Shown here piece after piece: positions 8,011 through 46,191 of a DNA stretch of 46,825 bases. Origin of the DNA: a bacterium (GTDB lineage: Bacteria; Patescibacteriota; Minisyncoccia; Phycocordibacterales; UBA2100); contig JAUSHX010000030.1 of the NCBI GenBank assembly GCA_030648265.1, positions 1 to 46,825 of the forward strand, written 5' to 3'. How positions within the stretch are numbered: the first letter of the stretch is position 1; each line of letters begins with the position of its first letter. The notes under the pieces are model-generated. The model did no database searches and was not told the origin of the DNA. It worked only from the letters and a program-made list of their open reading frames with translations. The position numbers and the translations under genes were made by a program.

Positions 8011-8046
8011 TTCTATTCCAGTGTTTTGCAAAACACTGGAATAGAA
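8011..8046. promoter_or_regulatory. 36-bp perfect palindrome, candidate operator of the adjacent winged-helix gene
   Basis: TTCTATTCCAGTGTTTTGCAAAACACTGGAATAGAA; -10-like TAGAAT at 8042-8047 overlaps its right edge. Confidence 0.8.
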
Positions 8047-8058
8047 TACAATGCAGGT

Positions 8059-8334
8059 ATGATAAATCGCAGTTACCGCAATATTGAGCGCATTGTAAAA
8101 GGCTATGCCAACCACCGGAGATTAGAGATACTCGATTTGCTGCGCAAAGAGCCCGAGCTTTCGGTGGAGGACATATCGGAAAAGTTAAAAATTGGGTACC
8201 AAAACGCTTCGGACCACATTCGCAGGCTTGCAATCGCAGGACTTGTCGCCAAGCGGAACGATGGTCCGAGCGTCCGACACAAACTAACGCCTCGAGCAGA
8301 GTCTATTCTAGTGTTTTGCAAAACACTGGAATAA
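8059..8334 (+). CDS. Small winged-helix (ArsR-like) transcriptional regulator
   Basis: NHRRLEILDLL...LSVEDISEKLKIGYQNASDHIRRLAIAGLVAK pattern. Confidence 0.85.
   Translation: MINRSYRNIERIVKGYANHRRLEILDLLRKEPELSVEDISEKLKIGYQNASDHIRRLAIAGLVAKRNDGPSVRHKLTPRAESILVFCKTLE
8304..8333. promoter_or_regulatory. 30-bp palindrome (1 mismatched pair), second copy of the 8011 palindrome, overlapping the regulator stop codon
   Basis: TATTCTAGTGTTTTGCAAAACACTGGAATA; ORF stop at 8332-8334. Confidence 0.8.
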
Positions 8335-8456: not shown

Positions 8457-8975
8457 ATGACCCAAAACAACTTCGCGGAATCAATGCTCAAGGGCCGGAT
8501 GGCCGAAACGCTGTTTGAAGAGATGATGAAAGCATCTGGAAATATCGTGTACCGTTTCGGCTATGAGGCCATCGTGCAAAACTTGGCGCAACTCGAAGAG
8601 AAATTTGACCGCTATAATGAGGTCGGCGAGAAAATCCGTTCGATCCCTGACTTTATTGTTTTGGACAAGAAGGGCGAGCCGCTTTTGGTTGAGGTCAAGT
8701 TTCGGGCGCGACCCAATGACCCGCTACACGTTGAAACAATCCAGATTTTACAGAGGTTGGACAAGTTTTGGGGCGCGATGCTTGTGGTTGTGAATTGCTG
8801 GGAGCAACCATACTTTCGCGTTGCTATGCCGCCATATATAAACAAAGAGAAGAAAGTTGAATTACTTCCGCTGACTGCCGTGAAAAGGTGGACTATCGAT
8901 AAAAATGTTTATGACCAATACGAAGCACTTGTACACAAATATCTGACGCCGACCCTAGTTCCACACAAAAAGTAA
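8457..8975 (+). CDS. Hypothetical protein with PD-(D/E)XK nuclease-like motif
   Basis: IPDFIVLDKKGEPLLVEVKFR fits PD-x(n)-ExK. Confidence 0.6.
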   Translation: MTQNNFAESMLKGRMAETLFEEMMKASGNIVYRFGYEAIVQNLAQLEEKFDRYNEVGEKIRSIPDFIVLDKKGEPLLVEVKFRARPNDPLHVETIQILQRLDKFWGAMLVVVNCWEQPYFRVAMPPYINKEKKVELLPLTAVKRWTIDKNVYDQYEALVHKYLTPTLVPHKK

Positions 8976-15399: not shown

Positions 15400-15506
15400 A
15401 TGAAATGAATTACTATTTCTTTACCCAGCACCTTCGTTTCTTAATGAAACGAAGGTGCTGGGTGTAAGTTGTTTCTAAACTCGATTACTCATTAAGAAAA
15501 ACTAAC
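15397..15506 (+). ncRNA. Candidate structured leader upstream of hpf, related to the proS leader
   Basis: GAATTAC..TTCTT.ACCCAGCACCTT hairpin AAGGTGCTGGGTGTAAG..TTCTAAA.TCG..ACTCATTAAGAA..CTAAC-ATG shared with 23213-23319. Confidence 0.65.
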
Positions 15507-15936: not shown

Positions 15937-15978
15937 TAAAAACATTCCAACATTCTGCAGAATGTTGGAATGTTTTTA
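15937..15978. terminator. 42-bp perfect palindrome, bidirectional terminator and/or operator between convergent hpf and fmt
   Basis: TAAAAACATTCCAACATTCTG|CAGAATGTTGGAATGTTTTTA; A-run/T-run edges; overlaps fmt stop. Confidence 0.7.
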
Positions 15979-16866
15979 GATTGGTTTTGCGCCGGAGCGC
16001 AGGAATTCCGCGTAGCTCATTTCCTTTTTGCCTTCGGGTTTTACTTTATCTATCACGAGCAAGCTGTTATCAATGTGCGCGTCTAAAATCCCGACGCGAA
16101 TTTTCTTTCCGTTTCTTTCAAAAAAAGTATATGTGCCGACGGTCGTGTCAAAGGCTCGGATTTTGAGAAGATTTTTATACGGGTCGCTGTTTAGATTTAT
16201 GAACCCGTCTTCTTTCGTGATTTTTGGGCAGTACGTAGCAACATCGTGATTCTGCTCATGCTCCTCAATCTCTCCGGCAACCCAGCTTGGCAGTATCTCA
16301 ATGAGAAGTTGGACGCTCGTGCGGGTGGCAAGTGCTTCCAATTCCTGCGCGCGCGGCGGCCATCCGCCAGCCGGCGGATAGATTTTCCTTTGTGCGACAA
16401 CGGGACCGTGGTCAATTTTCTCGTCCAAAAGAATTATTGATGTTCCGATTGCGTGGTCGTCGTTGAATATGGCTGCGCGTACAGGCGAGGTGCCGCGCCA
16501 ACGCGGCAGAAGAGAGAAGTGTATGTTTAGTGTGCCATGCGCTGGGATGTCTAGAATTTCTTTCGGCAATACCTTTCCGTAGTAAATAACGATAAATAGG
16601 TCACAATTTTTCAAACGGATTATTTCCGCCACGCTATTATCAAGAGCCTCGGGGGCGATAGCTTCAATGTTACGCGTGTTTGCCCACTGTTTGACAGGAG
16701 AGGATGTGAGCTGCATGCCGCGGCCCTTTTTCTGGTCGGGGGTCGTCACTACGAGTGTTGGCAAATATCCTGCGCTTTCAAGCGCGTCCAAAACAACCGT
16801 TGCCAATTCCGGAGTGCCGAAAAACACGAAACGGACATCACTCTTTTTCTTCAGGTTGTTCATCAT
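15976..16866 (-). CDS. fmt: Methionyl-tRNA formyltransferase
   Basis: VRFVFFGTPELATVVLDAL, LNIHFSLLPRWRGTSPVRAAI. Confidence 0.93.
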   Translation of the reverse strand: MMNNLKKKSDVRFVFFGTPELATVVLDALESAGYLPTLVVTTPDQKKGRGMQLTSSPVKQWANTRNIEAIAPEALDNSVAEIIRLKNCDLFIVIYYGKVLPKEILDIPAHGTLNIHFSLLPRWRGTSPVRAAIFNDDHAIGTSIILLDEKIDHGPVVAQRKIYPPAGGWPPRAQELEALATRTSVQLLIEILPSWVAGEIEEHEQNHDVATYCPKITKEDGFINLNSDPYKNLLKIRAFDTTVGTYTFFERNGKKIRVGILDAHIDNSLLVIDKVKPEGKKEMSYAEFLRSGAKPI

Positions 16867-23212: not shown

Positions 23213-23319
23213 GATGTTATGAGCAAAGCGAATTACATATTCTTGACCCAGCACCTTTCGCGAAAGGTGCTGGGTGTAAGAGCTTCTAAATTCGTTATCA
23301 CTCATTAAGAATCTCTAAC
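23213..23319 (+). ncRNA. Candidate structured leader upstream of proS, related to the hpf leader
   Basis: Hairpin ACCCAGCACCTTTCG|CGAAAGGTGCTGGGT and conserved 3' segment shared with 15397-15506. Confidence 0.65.
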
Positions 23320-30019: not shown

Positions 30020-31000
30020 ATGGACTACCGAATATTCAGCTTAGGAAGCAACGACGGGCTCTCTAAGAAAATTTCCGAGCGTCTTGGTATTCCGCTTGGC
30101 AAGATTCAGTGCAAGACATTCTCGGACGGGGAACAGTACGTGCAATTTCAGGAGAATCTTCGCGGGAAAAGCATCTTTCTTATCCAATCAACCAATCCTC
30201 CATCCGACAACTGGACGCGGCTTTTTCTTGCGGTTGACGCGGCGCGCGGCGCTTCCGCGCATGAGATAACGGCGGTCATTCCTTATTTCGGCTACGCACG
30301 GCAAGACCGCAAGGACAGGCCTCGCGAGCCGATATCTGCCCGCGTATTCGCAACGATGCTTGAATCTGTCGGTACCAGTCACGTTCTCACGATGGACCTA
30401 CACGATGACGCCATCGGCGGATTTTTTCGGACGGCCAATGTGGATTATCTGTACGCGAGGCCGGTATTCATTTCGCACTTCAAGAAATATTTCTCCGCCG
30501 GAGGCGGATCCGCCTCCGGCGGAAAAGATGCTCTAGATGATTTGGTGGTCGTCTCGCCGGATGCGGGCGGAGTTGTGCGTGCGCAATCGTATGCAAAGCG
30601 CCTGATGAAGTCAGCCGACTTGGCCATCATCCACAAAGAGCGGGACATTCCTAATCAAGTGGCGAGAATGAAATTGATAGGGGACGTGAAAGGAAAAGTC
30701 GCGCTCATCGTTGACGACATGATTGACACGTGCGGCACGTTGGTGACTGCCGCGAACTTGCTCGTGGAAAACGGAGCGAGGGAAGTGTATGCCGCGGCCA
30801 CGCACGGAGTGCTAAGCGGTCAGGCGCTTTCAGTGATAGACCGCTCGCCGATAAAGAAAATATTCATCACAGACACTATCTCGGCCGACCGCACCCTGTC
30901 TCCTAAAATTGAAGTCGTATCTGTCGGCGGTATTTTTGGCGACGCAATCCAAAGAATCACCAGCGGGGAATCATTGAGCGCATTGTTTGAGGCAGAATAG
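30020..31000 (+). CDS. prs: Ribose-phosphate pyrophosphokinase
   Basis: SDGEQYVQFQENLRGKSIFLIQS, YFGYARQDRKDRPREPISA, ALIVDDMIDTCGTL. Confidence 0.95.
   Translation: MDYRIFSLGSNDGLSKKISERLGIPLGKIQCKTFSDGEQYVQFQENLRGKSIFLIQSTNPPSDNWTRLFLAVDAARGASAHEITAVIPYFGYARQDRKDRPREPISARVFATMLESVGTSHVLTMDLHDDAIGGFFRTANVDYLYARPVFISHFKKYFSAGGGSASGGKDALDDLVVVSPDAGGVVRAQSYAKRLMKSADLAIIHKERDIPNQVARMKLIGDVKGKVALIVDDMIDTCGTLVTAANLLVENGAREVYAAATHGVLSGQALSVIDRSPIKKIFITDTISADRTLSPKIEVVSVGGIFGDAIQRITSGESLSALFEAE
30494..30523. repeat. 30-bp perfect palindrome inserted in-frame in prs
   Basis: TCCGCCGGAGGCGGA|TCCGCCTCCGGCGGA; peptide SAGGGSASGGK. Confidence 0.9.
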
Positions 31001-31058: not shown

Positions 31059-31090
31059 TTATGCGCATATTCGGCCGAATTAGCGCATAA
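31059..31090. promoter_or_regulatory. 32-bp palindrome (2 mismatched pairs) upstream of the second winged-helix gene
   Basis: TTATGCGCATATTCGG|CCGAATTAGCGCATAA. Confidence 0.7.
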
Positions 31091-31133
31091 GGAATAGCGG
31101 GCGGGCAGATAGATACAATGATATGATACTCGT

Positions 31134-31394
31134 ATGAACGAGTTGGAACGAAATCTGAAAGCCCTTGCCAACAAACGTCGGCTTGCAATTCTGAAATATC
31201 TAAAACGCATCGGCAAATCGTCAGTAGGAGATATTGCTAGCGAGATCGGGCTTTCATTTAAAGCGACCTCACGACATCTTGGCGTACTAACCGGCGTGGG
31301 AATTCTGGAGAAAGAACAGGAGGGCTTAACTATGTGGCACAGTATATCTCCGCGTAAGCACCCAGTTGCTACGAATGTAACGAAACTCTTGTAA
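31134..31394 (+). CDS. Small winged-helix (ArsR-like) transcriptional regulator
   Basis: LKALANKRRLAILKYLKRIGKSSVGDIASEIGLSFKATSRHLGVLTGVGILEK. Confidence 0.88.
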   Translation: MNELERNLKALANKRRLAILKYLKRIGKSSVGDIASEIGLSFKATSRHLGVLTGVGILEKEQEGLTMWHSISPRKHPVATNVTKLL

Positions 31395-31423
31395 ATCGGT
31401 TGTTGATGCGATTACTGTGCGCC

Positions 31424-31457
31424 ACTATGGGCATATTCGGGCGAATTAGCCTATAGT
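31424..31457. promoter_or_regulatory. 34-bp degenerate palindrome downstream of the second winged-helix gene
   Basis: ACTATGGGCATATTCGG|GCGAATTAGCCTATAGT, four mismatched pairs. Confidence 0.65.
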
Positions 31458-31993: not shown

Positions 31994-32029
31994 AACTATA
32001 TGCTTATTCGCGCGAATAAGCATATAGTT
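31994..32029. promoter_or_regulatory. 36-bp perfect palindrome upstream of the HD hydrolase gene
   Basis: AACTATATGCTTATTCGC|GCGAATAAGCATATAGTT; same family as 31059, 31424, 15884. Confidence 0.8.
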
Positions 32030-32646: not shown

Positions 32647-34302
32647 TCACCCCCATTCAATCGTAGCCGGAGGCTTGTCGGAGATGCGGTACACGACAGA
32701 ACCGACTTCGCGGACTTCGTTCGTGATTCGGCGGGACACACGGTCCAGGAAATCATACGGAAGCTGGGCAAAGCGTGCAGTGAAGCCGTTAACGCTCCAG
32801 ACGGCCCACAGCGCTACGACATATCCTGTGCCCGCATCATCGCCCTTGGAGACAGTATGTTCCGAGCGTGTGAGCGTTGCACCAGCTTGCCAGACCGTTT
32901 TGTATAAATCTGCTACTCGTAATTCTTCTATATAGATTCCGTCTATTGCGCGGGCAATTTTTAATCTTTCGGCTGTAATCTCTCCTTCAATGCGGACGAC
33001 GAGCCCGGGGCCGGGGAAGGGATGGCGCACGAGCAAATCTTCAGGGACGCCGATATCTCGTCCGATTCCGCGCGCGGAATCTTTCACGCAATCAGAGAGC
33101 GGTGTAAGTTCCGGAACGGAGAATTTGATTCCCGTATTGTGATGCACTTTAATTTCCGCCACGCGGGCACCCGTCGCGTTTCCCAGCCCGCTTTCGCGCA
33201 GGTCGGTATAGAGTGTGCCTTGTGCAATAAAGTCAGCGCCAAATTCCTTTATCTTTTCTTCCAACACCTCGCGATACACATCTCGCATTGCCACGCGCTT
33301 TTCCTGCATACTCATTTTGCCTTTGAGTGCAGCAAGAAATTCCTTAGTCGCATCTGCAATTTCAACTGAAATCCAATCCTGTTTGCCAAAATAATTCTTT
33401 ACATACGCCTCGTCGTCCGGCCTGTCTATTCCGCGTATGTAAATCCCTCTTAAGGTGAGACCTTGGGAGCGACTCTTTAAGGTCTCACCTTGGGGATGCA
33501 TCGCTTCTTTAAGAAGATACGCCACGACAGACGAATCTGAACCGCCCGAAAGGGCAATGAGAACTTTTCCGCCGGAGGCGGATCCGCCTTCGGCGGACTT
33601 CCCTGCAATCTGTTTTTGTAAGTTCTCTATCTTTTCTTTGGAAACGTTGTGTGCGGGGAAGCGGTCGGTAATTCCACAAATTTTGAAACAGAAATTTTCA
33701 TACATATGCGCACCCTTATCGGTTTCCGTTACTTCAGGGTGGAACTGTACTCCCCAAAGATGCTTGTATCTGCCTGCGGCGACGGGAGCATTCTCGGTGG
33801 AGCCGAGAATCGTAATTATGGAATCCGGTTCTATGGAATCGCCATGTGTTTGCAAAACTTTTGTCCCATTTGAAACTCCCTCAAACAAATCGTCAGCGGA
33901 TAATATTTTCAAAGTGTGCGTGCCGAACTCGCGTTTCTCATGCGGAGTAACTTTTGCCCCAACATGCTTCGCCCACATCTGAAATCCGAGACAAACTCCG
34001 AGAACTGGAATGCCCAAATCAAATATCTTTTCATCAAAAGGTGGCGGCTCGTCGTGTACGGAAGCAGGCCCGCCCGAAACTATGATGCCCGCCGGTTTTA
34101 ATTTCTGCACATCTTCCACTCGTACCGAAGCAGGGTCGGCAACGAGGCAATAAACTCCTAAGCGCGCTAGTTGCTGGACGATAAGGTGGTCAAACTGCGA
34201 ACCCATTGAAAACAGGAGTATTAGATGTGCAGTCTTTCGCATCCGCATTTCCTCGCTAATTTCAGCTAGTGTTTCCATCGTCGCTGTTTTGAATATCGGC
34301 AT
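32647..34302 (-). CDS. guaA: GMP synthase (glutamine-hydrolysing)
   Basis: GIIVSGGPASVHDE, VLGVCLGFQ, ALSGGSDSSVVAYLL, VRHPFPGPGLVVR. Confidence 0.94.
   Translation of the reverse strand: MPIFKTATMETLAEISEEMRMRKTAHLILLFSMGSQFDHLIVQQLARLGVYCLVADPASVRVEDVQKLKPAGIIVSGGPASVHDEPPPFDEKIFDLGIPVLGVCLGFQMWAKHVGAKVTPHEKREFGTHTLKILSADDLFEGVSNGTKVLQTHGDSIEPDSIITILGSTENAPVAAGRYKHLWGVQFHPEVTETDKGAHMYENFCFKICGITDRFPAHNVSKEKIENLQKQIAGKSAEGGSASGGKVLIALSGGSDSSVVAYLLKEAMHPQGETLKSRSQGLTLRGIYIRGIDRPDDEAYVKNYFGKQDWISVEIADATKEFLAALKGKMSMQEKRVAMRDVYREVLEEKIKEFGADFIAQGTLYTDLRESGLGNATGARVAEIKVHHNTGIKFSVPELTPLSDCVKDSARGIGRDIGVPEDLLVRHPFPGPGLVVRIEGEITAERLKIARAIDGIYIEELRVADLYKTVWQAGATLTRSEHTVSKGDDAGTGYVVALWAVWSVNGFTARFAQLPYDFLDRVSRRITNEVREVGSVVYRISDKPPATIEWG
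33452..33491. repeat. Palindromic insert in guaA (AAGGTGAGACCTT...AAGGTCTCACCTT)
   Basis: 13-bp inverted repeat; peptide HPQGETLKSRSQGLTLRG. Confidence 0.8.
33568..33597. repeat. 30-bp palindrome in guaA, near-identical to the prs insert
   Basis: TCCGCCGGAGGCGGA|TCCGCCTTCGGCGGA, one mismatched pair; peptide SAEGGSASGGK. Confidence 0.9.
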
Positions 34303-38097: not shown

Positions 38098-38134
38098 AGA
38101 GTATTCTCGTATTCTTAAGAATATGAGAGTATGT
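38098..38134. promoter_or_regulatory. Palindromic operator copy 1, upstream of the third winged-helix gene
   Basis: AGAGTATTCTCGTATTCTTAAGAATATGAGAGTATGT, identical 37 nt at 38466-38502. Confidence 0.8.
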
Positions 38135-38139
38135 GGGTG

Positions 38140-38439
38140 ATGAGTGAAGAGAGCACGAAAAAGAAAAAGGGACCGAAAAAGCTGGAACGGCATTTTAAGG
38201 GCATCTCCAATCATTGGCGAATACAAATACTGCTTCTTGTCGCAGATAATTCGGGCATCACGCTCAACGACATAGCCGATGCCGTCAAAGGGAACATGAA
38301 GACCATATCCGAGCACACGCGACGTCTTATGCTAGCGGGGCTGATAGAGAAGAACTATGCTGGACTGTCTGTTGAACACAACCTAACGCCGTACGGCCGG
38401 CAGTTTGTTTCTTTCATAAATACATTCTCAAATTCTTAA
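38140..38439 (+). CDS. Small winged-helix (ArsR-like) transcriptional regulator
   Basis: NHWRIQILLLVADNSGITLNDIADAVKGNMKTISEHTRRLMLAGLIEK...GLSVEHNLTP, similar to the 8059 protein. Confidence 0.87.
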   Translation: MSEESTKKKKGPKKLERHFKGISNHWRIQILLLVADNSGITLNDIADAVKGNMKTISEHTRRLMLAGLIEKNYAGLSVEHNLTPYGRQFVSFINTFSNS

Positions 38440-38455
38440 GAAATACGAGAATTTT
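38422..38455. promoter_or_regulatory. Degenerate copy of the 38098 palindrome over the regulator stop codon
   Basis: ACATTCTCAAATTCTTAAGAAATACGAGAATTTT; TAA stop at its centre. Confidence 0.7.
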
Positions 38456-38465
38456 GTAGCGATAA

Positions 38466-38502
38466 AGAGTATTCTCGTATTCTTAAGAATATGAGAGTAT
38501 GT
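38466..38502. promoter_or_regulatory. Palindromic operator copy 3
   Basis: Identical 37-nt copy of 38098-38134. Confidence 0.8.
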
Positions 38503-45433: not shown

Positions 45434-45452
45434 ACCAAGGACGGTCCTTGGT
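45434..45452. repeat. REP upstream of the RAYT gene
   Basis: ACCAAGGACGGTCCTTGGT. Confidence 0.75.
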
Positions 45453-45466
45453 GATAGAATGGCGAT

Positions 45467-46171
45467 ATGCTAAGACGAGTACCACTGATTTCAGACGAAA
45501 CATATCACGTTTACAACAGGGGCGCGGGTAAGCAACGCATATATACTACGCCGAGAGACTACGAGCGCTTCATGGGACTTCTGTGTCTGGCCAATAGCAA
45601 AGAGCCGATAACATACCGAGGACCGTCCTCGGTAGGGATTTTCAAACAAGAAAAAGAGGCCGCGCCGACTCAAAAGTTGGTTGATGTGCTCGCCTACGTG
45701 CTCATGCCGAATCATTTCCATTTGGTGTTGAAGCAGATAAAAGATGAGGGCATCACCAAGTTTATGCGCAAGCTTGCGACTGGATACTCTATGTATTTCA
45801 ATATCAAGTACGAACACAGCGGCGTTCTGTTCCAAGGACGGTTCAAAAGCAGTCACATTAACTCGGAGCCATATTTTAGATACATCTTCTCGTATGTGCA
45901 TCTTAATCCCGTAGAGCTCATTGAGCCAGACTGGAAAGAAGGAACTATTCGCAATGAGAAAAGGGTGCGGAAATTTCTTGCCGACTACCGATACGGAAGT
46001 TACTTTGACTATTGTGTCGGCGAGCGACCGGAGCGGGCGATTCTCGCTTATGATGATGCGCCGGATTTCTTGAAGGAGCAGAATGATTTGGAAGAAATGC
46101 TTAGCGACTTTTCAAAGGGTCGCATACTCCACACCGATGACGGTGTGATTACCGAGGACCGTCCTCGGTAA
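45467..46171 (+). CDS. REP-associated tyrosine transposase (RAYT, Y1_Tnp)
   Basis: YHVYNRGAGKQRIY, YVLMPNHFHLVLKQ (HUH), YIFSYVHLNPVE. Confidence 0.92.
   Translation: MLRRVPLISDETYHVYNRGAGKQRIYTTPRDYERFMGLLCLANSKEPITYRGPSSVGIFKQEKEAAPTQKLVDVLAYVLMPNHFHLVLKQIKDEGITKFMRKLATGYSMYFNIKYEHSGVLFQGRFKSSHINSEPYFRYIFSYVHLNPVELIEPDWKEGTIRNEKRVRKFLADYRYGSYFDYCVGERPERAILAYDDAPDFLKEQNDLEEMLSDFSKGRILHTDDGVITEDRPR
45614..45634. repeat. REP palindrome inside the RAYT coding sequence
   Basis: TACCGAGGACCGTCCTCGGTA, in-frame YRGPSSVG. Confidence 0.85.
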
Positions 46172-46191
46172 CGGAGGACGGTCCTCGGTAA
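46149..46191. repeat. REP doublet at RAYT 3' end (contains the RAYT stop codon)
   Basis: TTACCGAGGACCGTCCTCGGTAA CGGAGGACGGTCCTCGGTAA. Confidence 0.85.

Follow-up and report, generated by a model that had tools for sequence, protein, structure and literature searches.

A winged-helix gene framed by two copies of one palindrome

The window, a stretch of 46,825 nucleotides, is the whole of contig C35 of a 0.94-Mb genome (G000) whose nearest named relatives are Candidatus Kaiserbacteria. It contains a gene for a 91-residue protein that lies between two copies of a long palindrome, here called class A (Table 1). An earlier note on this DNA had described a perfect 36-bp palindrome 12 nt before the start codon and a 30-bp copy with one mismatched pair over the 3′ end and stop of the gene; both descriptions were accurate. 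The upstream copy (8011–8046), TTCTATTCCAGTGTTTTGCAAAACACTGGAATAGAA, consists of two 18-nt arms free of mismatches, and the ATG at 8059 begins 12 nt past its end. The downstream copy (8304–8333), TATTCTAGTGTTTTGCAAAACACTGGAATA, carries its single mismatched pair within 30 bp and extends into the TAA stop codon (8332–8334). Together, the copies form a 32-nt direct repeat of 97% identity. The 22-bp palindrome core was matched twice in the window and not once in 100 dinucleotide shuffles of it, and three shuffled windows held no palindromes of the quality of these two.

Table 1. Palindromes, genes and predicted promoter in the window
Feature	Position	Strand	Evidence
Upstream palindrome, class A, half-site TATTCCAGTGTTTTG; putative autoregulatory operator	8011..8046	.	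Perfect 36-bp palindrome; kept upstream in homologs
Predicted promoter: TTTGCA (8025–8030), 16-bp spacer, TACAAT (8047–8052); leaderless start at ATG predicted	8025..8052	+	Promoter scan; layout in relatives
91-aa ArsR/MarR-like winged-helix DNA-binding protein	8059..8334	+	Pfam, NCBIfam, AlphaFold, Foldseek PDB
Downstream palindrome, class A, over the last nine codons and most of the stop codon	8304..8333	.	Palindrome match; codon entropy
Solo palindrome, class B (TTCGCGCGAA core), 5 bp past a stop codon	15884..15913	.	Palindrome scan
Solo palindrome, class C (TTCTGCAGAA core), over the stop of minus-strand gene 15976–16866	15937..15978	.	Palindrome scan
Second bracketed winged-helix unit: TATGCGCATATTCGGCCGAATTAGCGCATA, gene 31134–31394, CTATGGGCATATTCGGGCGAATTAGCCTATAG	31060..31456	+	Bracketing screen
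Solo palindrome, class B	31994..32029	.	Palindrome scan
Third bracketed winged-helix unit: identical TATTCTCGTATTCTTAAGAATATGAGAGTA at 38102–38131 and 38470–38499, gene 38131–38439	38102..38499	+	Bracketing screen

The gene product matched Pfam HTH_5 (E 4e-8). Its AlphaFold model (pLDDT 80) has the order helix, helix, helix, recognition helix, wing, helix, and the nearest solved folds (Foldseek PDB) were MarR, CadC, SqrR, HlyU and AspA. The NCBIfam scores fell under their cut-offs (50.9 vs. 55; 27 vs. 100), that for NF033788 included, and neither helix 3 nor helix 5 contains an ArsR/SmtB metal motif. The last helix (residues 78–90) is encoded in part by the downstream palindrome, which specifies ILVFCKTLE, the end of helix 5; the protein’s sole cysteine, C87, is thus palindrome-encoded. 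We rejected the notion of a defence-system gene, as the PADLOC matches were at the level of the HTH only. Directly 3′ of the gene, positions 8457–8975 encode a 172-residue protein with a paralog on contig C32 of the same genome and orthologs in G013, G024, G033 and G065; it had no matches in Pfam, NCBIfam or PADLOC.

The upstream palindrome covers a predicted promoter

The earlier note had also placed a −10-like TAGAAT at the upstream palindrome. A promoter is indeed predicted there, and TACAAT is the better −10: it immediately follows the palindrome, 6 nt short of the ATG, and a 16-bp spacer separates it from TTTGCA in the palindrome core. It is this spacing, not that of TAGAAT, that is kept among relatives. 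The class A layout in relatives comprises the upstream palindrome, a three-base gap, TANAAT, six or seven bases and the ATG. A strict −10 at the conserved spacing occurred in 18 of 36 class A upstream copies, compared to none of 30 downstream copies and one of 67 solo copies, and the ATG stood at leaderless distance in 17 of those 18 cassettes. A palindrome over the −35 and spacer of the gene’s own promoter is thus a feature of the unit. Because these elements belong to a leaderless promoter that is conserved, the natural and likely interpretation of the upstream copy, and of it alone, is that promoter occlusion leads to autorepression. No promoter accompanies the downstream or solo copies, so the term “operator” in its promoter sense applies, as judged from sequence, only to the upstream copy.

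It is very improbable that the palindromes serve only as transcription terminators or RNA hairpins. Strong RNA hairpins could form (−24.1 and −14.3 kcal/mol), and class C copies adjoin stop codons. However, no terminator-like site was found in the region, consistent with the earlier judgment that a plain terminator was unlikely for want of a U-run, and the combination of a GC stem and a T-run was lacking. Furthermore, the flanks are U-rich on the 5′ side and A-rich on the 3′ side, the opposite of a terminator; the core is fixed and loopless; one copy is embedded in a promoter; and G-T mismatches were not favored over A-C mismatches (32 vs. 42 of 130). A known RNA family was also discounted, the only match being a sub-threshold, chance one to mir-1005.

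The downstream palindrome is constrained as DNA

In 44 class A units, the upstream and downstream copies were identical at 15.9 of 20 non-core positions, compared to 13.0 ± 0.3 in 2000 shuffles (maximum 14.0), which leave the shared ancestry of the copies in place. At conserved residues, codon entropy was 0.46 bit across the nine terminal codons, compared to 1.64 elsewhere, so that synonymous change under the downstream palindrome is almost absent; in about 41 genes, its Phe TTT, Cys TGC and Lys AAA codons did not vary at all. Some substitutions, AGTG to AACG for example, hit both copies jointly, and the encoded Val becomes Thr. The downstream copy is thus under constraint at the DNA level, which determines how the winged-helix protein ends. 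The unit would therefore be a clear case of a putative DNA-binding site dictating the end of its own regulator’s protein sequence.

Two further claims of the earlier note survived in part. The final codons and stop had been called operator sequence: the DNA constraint agrees with this, but there is no promoter at the downstream copy, and the overlap with the stop is clade-specific. The locus had also been described as a self-contained, autoregulated cassette. The promoter under the upstream copy and the constraint on the 3′ copy fit autoregulation; “self-contained” does not fit a dispersed family with many solo copies.

The two palindromes are about 285–322 bp apart in most units, and a classic autoregulated cassette could use such matching operators, the upstream one overlapping the promoter, to form a loop that tightens repression. 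Yet the spacing between the palindromes showed no helical phasing (Rayleigh p 0.3–0.6), and looping leaves the solo and in-gene copies unexplained. We thus regard this arrangement as improbable.

The bracketed unit recurs with several palindrome classes

Genome G000 encodes eight homologs of the winged-helix protein, and one or more are present in 35 of 60 related genomes. Among 57 scoreable homologs, a strong palindrome was present upstream in 65%, downstream in 58% and on both sides in 51%; the respective values for 243 control genes were 11.5%, 20.6% and 2.5%. Screening 84,980 species genomes returned 80 loci, mostly in Kaiser-, Adler-, Nomura-, Taylor-, Niyogi- and Liptonbacteria, with a few in Microgenomates. 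Of the 78 scoreable Paceibacteria-wide loci, a set that overlaps in part with the 57 homologs, 42% had palindromes on both sides and 62% had matching sequences on the two sides. The gene flanked by two repeat copies is therefore a feature found across homologs, and the synteny check proposed in the earlier note came out in its favor: gene and both palindromes recur together in relatives.

The palindromes fall into classes with the cores TTTTGCAAAA, TTCTTAAGAA (along with TTGAGAA and TCAAGAA forms), TTCTGCAGAA, AACTGGAGTT and TTCGCGCGAA, and in bracketed units the class on the left is that on the right. The center of the 3′ copy usually lies 13 nt before the stop codon in the TTTTGCAAAA class; the other classes, like a few class A relatives (L251, L252, L280), have it 10–72 bp past the stop. 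Because it is kept past the stop elsewhere, the bracket is the conserved feature, and overlap with the stop is not essential. DNA similarity between cassettes ends at or beside the two palindromes. A role specific to arginine biosynthesis, raised by an argD neighbor, was dismissed, as the cassette occupies other loci in most relatives. The core AACTGGAGTT is a separate putative operator class that brackets or follows winged-helix genes in other families of the order (flanks of L025, L026 and L027).

Palindromes are also dispersed as solo copies

The genomes examined are mostly metagenome assemblies with genes called by a simple codon-usage caller, and the statistics carry no full correction for phylogeny. 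Seventeen class A copies (at most three mismatches to a 20-mer) were present in G000, and 28 of 52 same-genus genomes had 1–20 copies (range 0–20), with few in most genomes and a reversed-pattern control near zero. In 36 genomes, all 15 with the class A gene had sites, as did five of the 21 without it (Fisher p = 3e-6). The arms measure 15–24 bp, for a total of 30–48 bp. They are conserved over 15 bp; positions 16–18 are variable, yet they were paired in 56–65% of sites vs. 29–41% after permutation. No GTAG/GTGG head was found beside the palindromes, nor any conserved column past about arm position 19.

Solo sites are symmetric and occur between convergent, divergent and tandem genes. The scoreable intergenic solo copies displayed no significant preference for starts or stops (12 vs. 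9.6 and 9 vs. 11.5 expected, respectively) or for orientation. With the promoter layout in one of 67 solo copies and near-uniform placement, a classical regulon of repressed promoters was rejected.

Comparison of orthologous loci in G000, G024 and G072 revealed turnover. At the ilvE-like/NifU locus, a solo copy and a cassette replace each other, and at the argF, hydroxyacid dehydrogenase and comM loci the palindrome class differs. At the 3′ end of murC, a class C palindrome abuts or overlaps the stop in three species (L088, L314, L321), and a winged-helix gene of class T takes its place in G024 and G019. By coding sequence, the G024 cassette groups with the argD cassettes of G000 and G072 (93/95 support), although it is at a different locus. 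No target-site duplication or transposase was identified for the palindromes.

The window also encodes a REP-associated tyrosine transposase, or RAYT (45467–46171; Pfam Y1_Tnp above cut-off, NCBIfam NF047646 below), whose gene is framed by GC-rich hairpins CCAAGGACGGTCCTTGG and ACCGAGGACCGTCCTCGGT (45434–45450 and 46149–46191); 44 of 51 genomes in the genus carry RAYT-like genes. Dispersal of the palindromes by these resident transposases was rejected: they are present with or without class A sites, the counts are unrelated by eye, and the head motif is missing. Other repeats in the window include a different hairpin, ACCCAGCACCTT...AAGGTGCTGGGT, at 15423–15463 and 23246–23275, and a GC-rich palindrome, TCCGCCGGAGGCGGATCCGCCTCCGGCGGA, within called genes at 30494–30523 and 33568–33597 and also in L061.

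Some copies lie in frame within housekeeping genes

Twenty-six palindrome copies, a count enriched by the way loci were fetched, fell within confident ORFs, and 24 of these were in frame 0. All 14 in-ORF class A copies used the frame that encodes YSSVLQNTRI and none the ILVFCKTLE frame of the winged-helix gene. Many solo copies in genomes outside the G000/G024/G072 group are intragenic. In genus-wide alignments of PurN, PyrC and MutY, palindromes were located at the same loop of each protein, their class differing by species, and other orthologs had short loops. The PurN loop reads YSSVLQNTAI with class A, LLIRANKQ with class B, and HSNILKNVGM or similar with class C and T-like palindromes. 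PyrC with a palindrome has about 11 more codons than its short-loop orthologs, and TsaD and TsaC, compared to solved structures, have insertions of about 20 residues at the palindrome. In MiaA, PurE and PurN, existing residues were replaced rather than length added. In-frame copies within unrelated protein genes, which they do not break, are thus another feature of the family. We read IleRS and a CofE-like protein as probable further hosts; a TTCTCAAGAA-type palindrome lies in frame in an isoleucyl-tRNA synthetase-like gene of G072 (L196, around position 1295). Reuse of one loop or intergenic spot by different classes can also reflect conserved function or gene conversion.

A model for the palindromes and their regulators

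These palindromes are probably dispersed elements of multiple classes, each class having a dedicated, autoregulated winged-helix gene with its own repeat on both sides. The gene product would be a small dimer of the ArsR/MarR type, without a recognizable metal site, and would bind the palindrome of its class. At the upstream copy it would occlude the −35 and spacer of its own leaderless promoter, leading to self-repression, as the conserved layout suggests; the downstream copy would represent the conserved DNA end of the unit rather than a promoter operator. From the distribution of copies, we infer that palindromes spread or undergo exchange without the gene, entering intergenic DNA as well as, in frame, those loops of housekeeping proteins that tolerate them. 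On non-promoter copies, the protein may act as a roadblock, or it may mask or stabilize a hairpin. Direct observation covers the bracketing, the matching of classes, the DNA constraint, the placement at promoters, the dispersal, the turnover at loci and the in-frame copies; binding, autorepression, palindrome mobility and a possible role for the protein in the spread or tolerance of copies are inferred.

A bolder version is possible but doubtful. In it, the mobile unit is the winged-helix binding site itself, which would have spread into chromosomes and essential proteins as a self-propagating operator–regulator pair; the protein would be needed for spread or tolerance, and the specificities of the classes would have evolved with their proteins.

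We give a similarly low probability to a host regulatory network. In that view, the protein would be a conventional autorepressor, and the 3′, solo and in-gene copies would serve as binding sites away from promoters (roadblocks similar to phage stoperators, or DNA-organizing sites), their class changing when regulators are swapped. Sites and gene do co-occur across genomes; the same loci (the comM, argF and murC 3′ ends and the PurN, MutY and PyrC loops) are reoccupied by different classes; changes are two-fold symmetric, as for dimer sites; and AspA, a spreading centromere-binding protein, is among the nearest folds. But solo sites showed no significant placement preference at starts or stops, the outer arms are variable yet paired, the clear in-frame insertions in TsaD and TsaC are unlike regulatory sites, and sites remain in five of the 21 genomes without the class A gene.

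Invasion of protein-coding genes by palindromic repeats has been reported for Rickettsia and Wolbachia and is not known to have a defined driver. The present family would be their counterpart in candidate-phyla-radiation bacteria, one that exists in several parallel classes and has a DNA-binding protein physically linked to it. Given these two properties and a presence/absence series over 52 genomes, the spread and tolerance of such repeats become testable. The palindrome classes and their proteins would also constitute a natural library for studies of protein–DNA specificity. A search of open-licence papers gave no prior description of these palindromes in Patescibacteria.

Comparison with known systems

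The unit resembles ArsR/SmtB and SdpR-type autorepressors in its winged-helix fold, its small, dimer-type protein and the placement of an operator over its own promoter. It differs in lacking the ELCVCD metal motif, in its sub-cut-off NCBIfam scores and in the addition of a 3′ operator copy and dispersed copies.

The palindromic elements of Rickettsia and Wolbachia (RPE/WPE) are dispersed in reduced genomes, in frame in housekeeping ORFs, and RPEs are 100–150 bp long (PMC3767692, PMC10969869). The Paceibacteria palindromes are likewise dispersed, in frame in unrelated housekeeping ORFs with one preferred frame, and at loci common to orthologs. At 30–48 bp, however, they are shorter than RPEs, and they have several core classes, each with a dedicated, bracketed winged-helix gene, a feature absent from the consulted passages on RPEs (PMC3767692, PMC10969869).

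The unit resembles REP/RAYT systems, in which two repeat copies always frame a gene, further copies are dispersed, and the arms carry complementary mutations (PMC2817692). In contrast to those systems, the gene encodes a winged-helix regulator rather than a Y1 (HUH) transposase, there is no GTAG/GTGG head, and the palindromes are perfect and loopless, with no more than 20 copies vs. hundreds for REP (PMC2817692). Moreover, separate RAYT-like genes with hairpins of their own reside in the same genome as the winged-helix units.

The repressor and stoperators of cluster A mycobacteriophages also pair one DNA-binding protein with an operator at its own promoter and many non-promoter, intergenic sites (PMC9283540). 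Stoperators are 13-bp asymmetric sites that a monomer binds and that follow the direction of transcription (PMC9283540), whereas the sites described here are symmetric, are in a bacterial chromosome and also occur within ORFs.

By analogy, the palindromes appear closest to Rickettsia palindromic elements in behavior, to RAYT–REP in architecture and to stoperators in their possible non-promoter action. Because it departs from each known system in at least one tested feature, we consider the family a likely variant of dispersed palindromic elements, one with a dedicated regulator gene.
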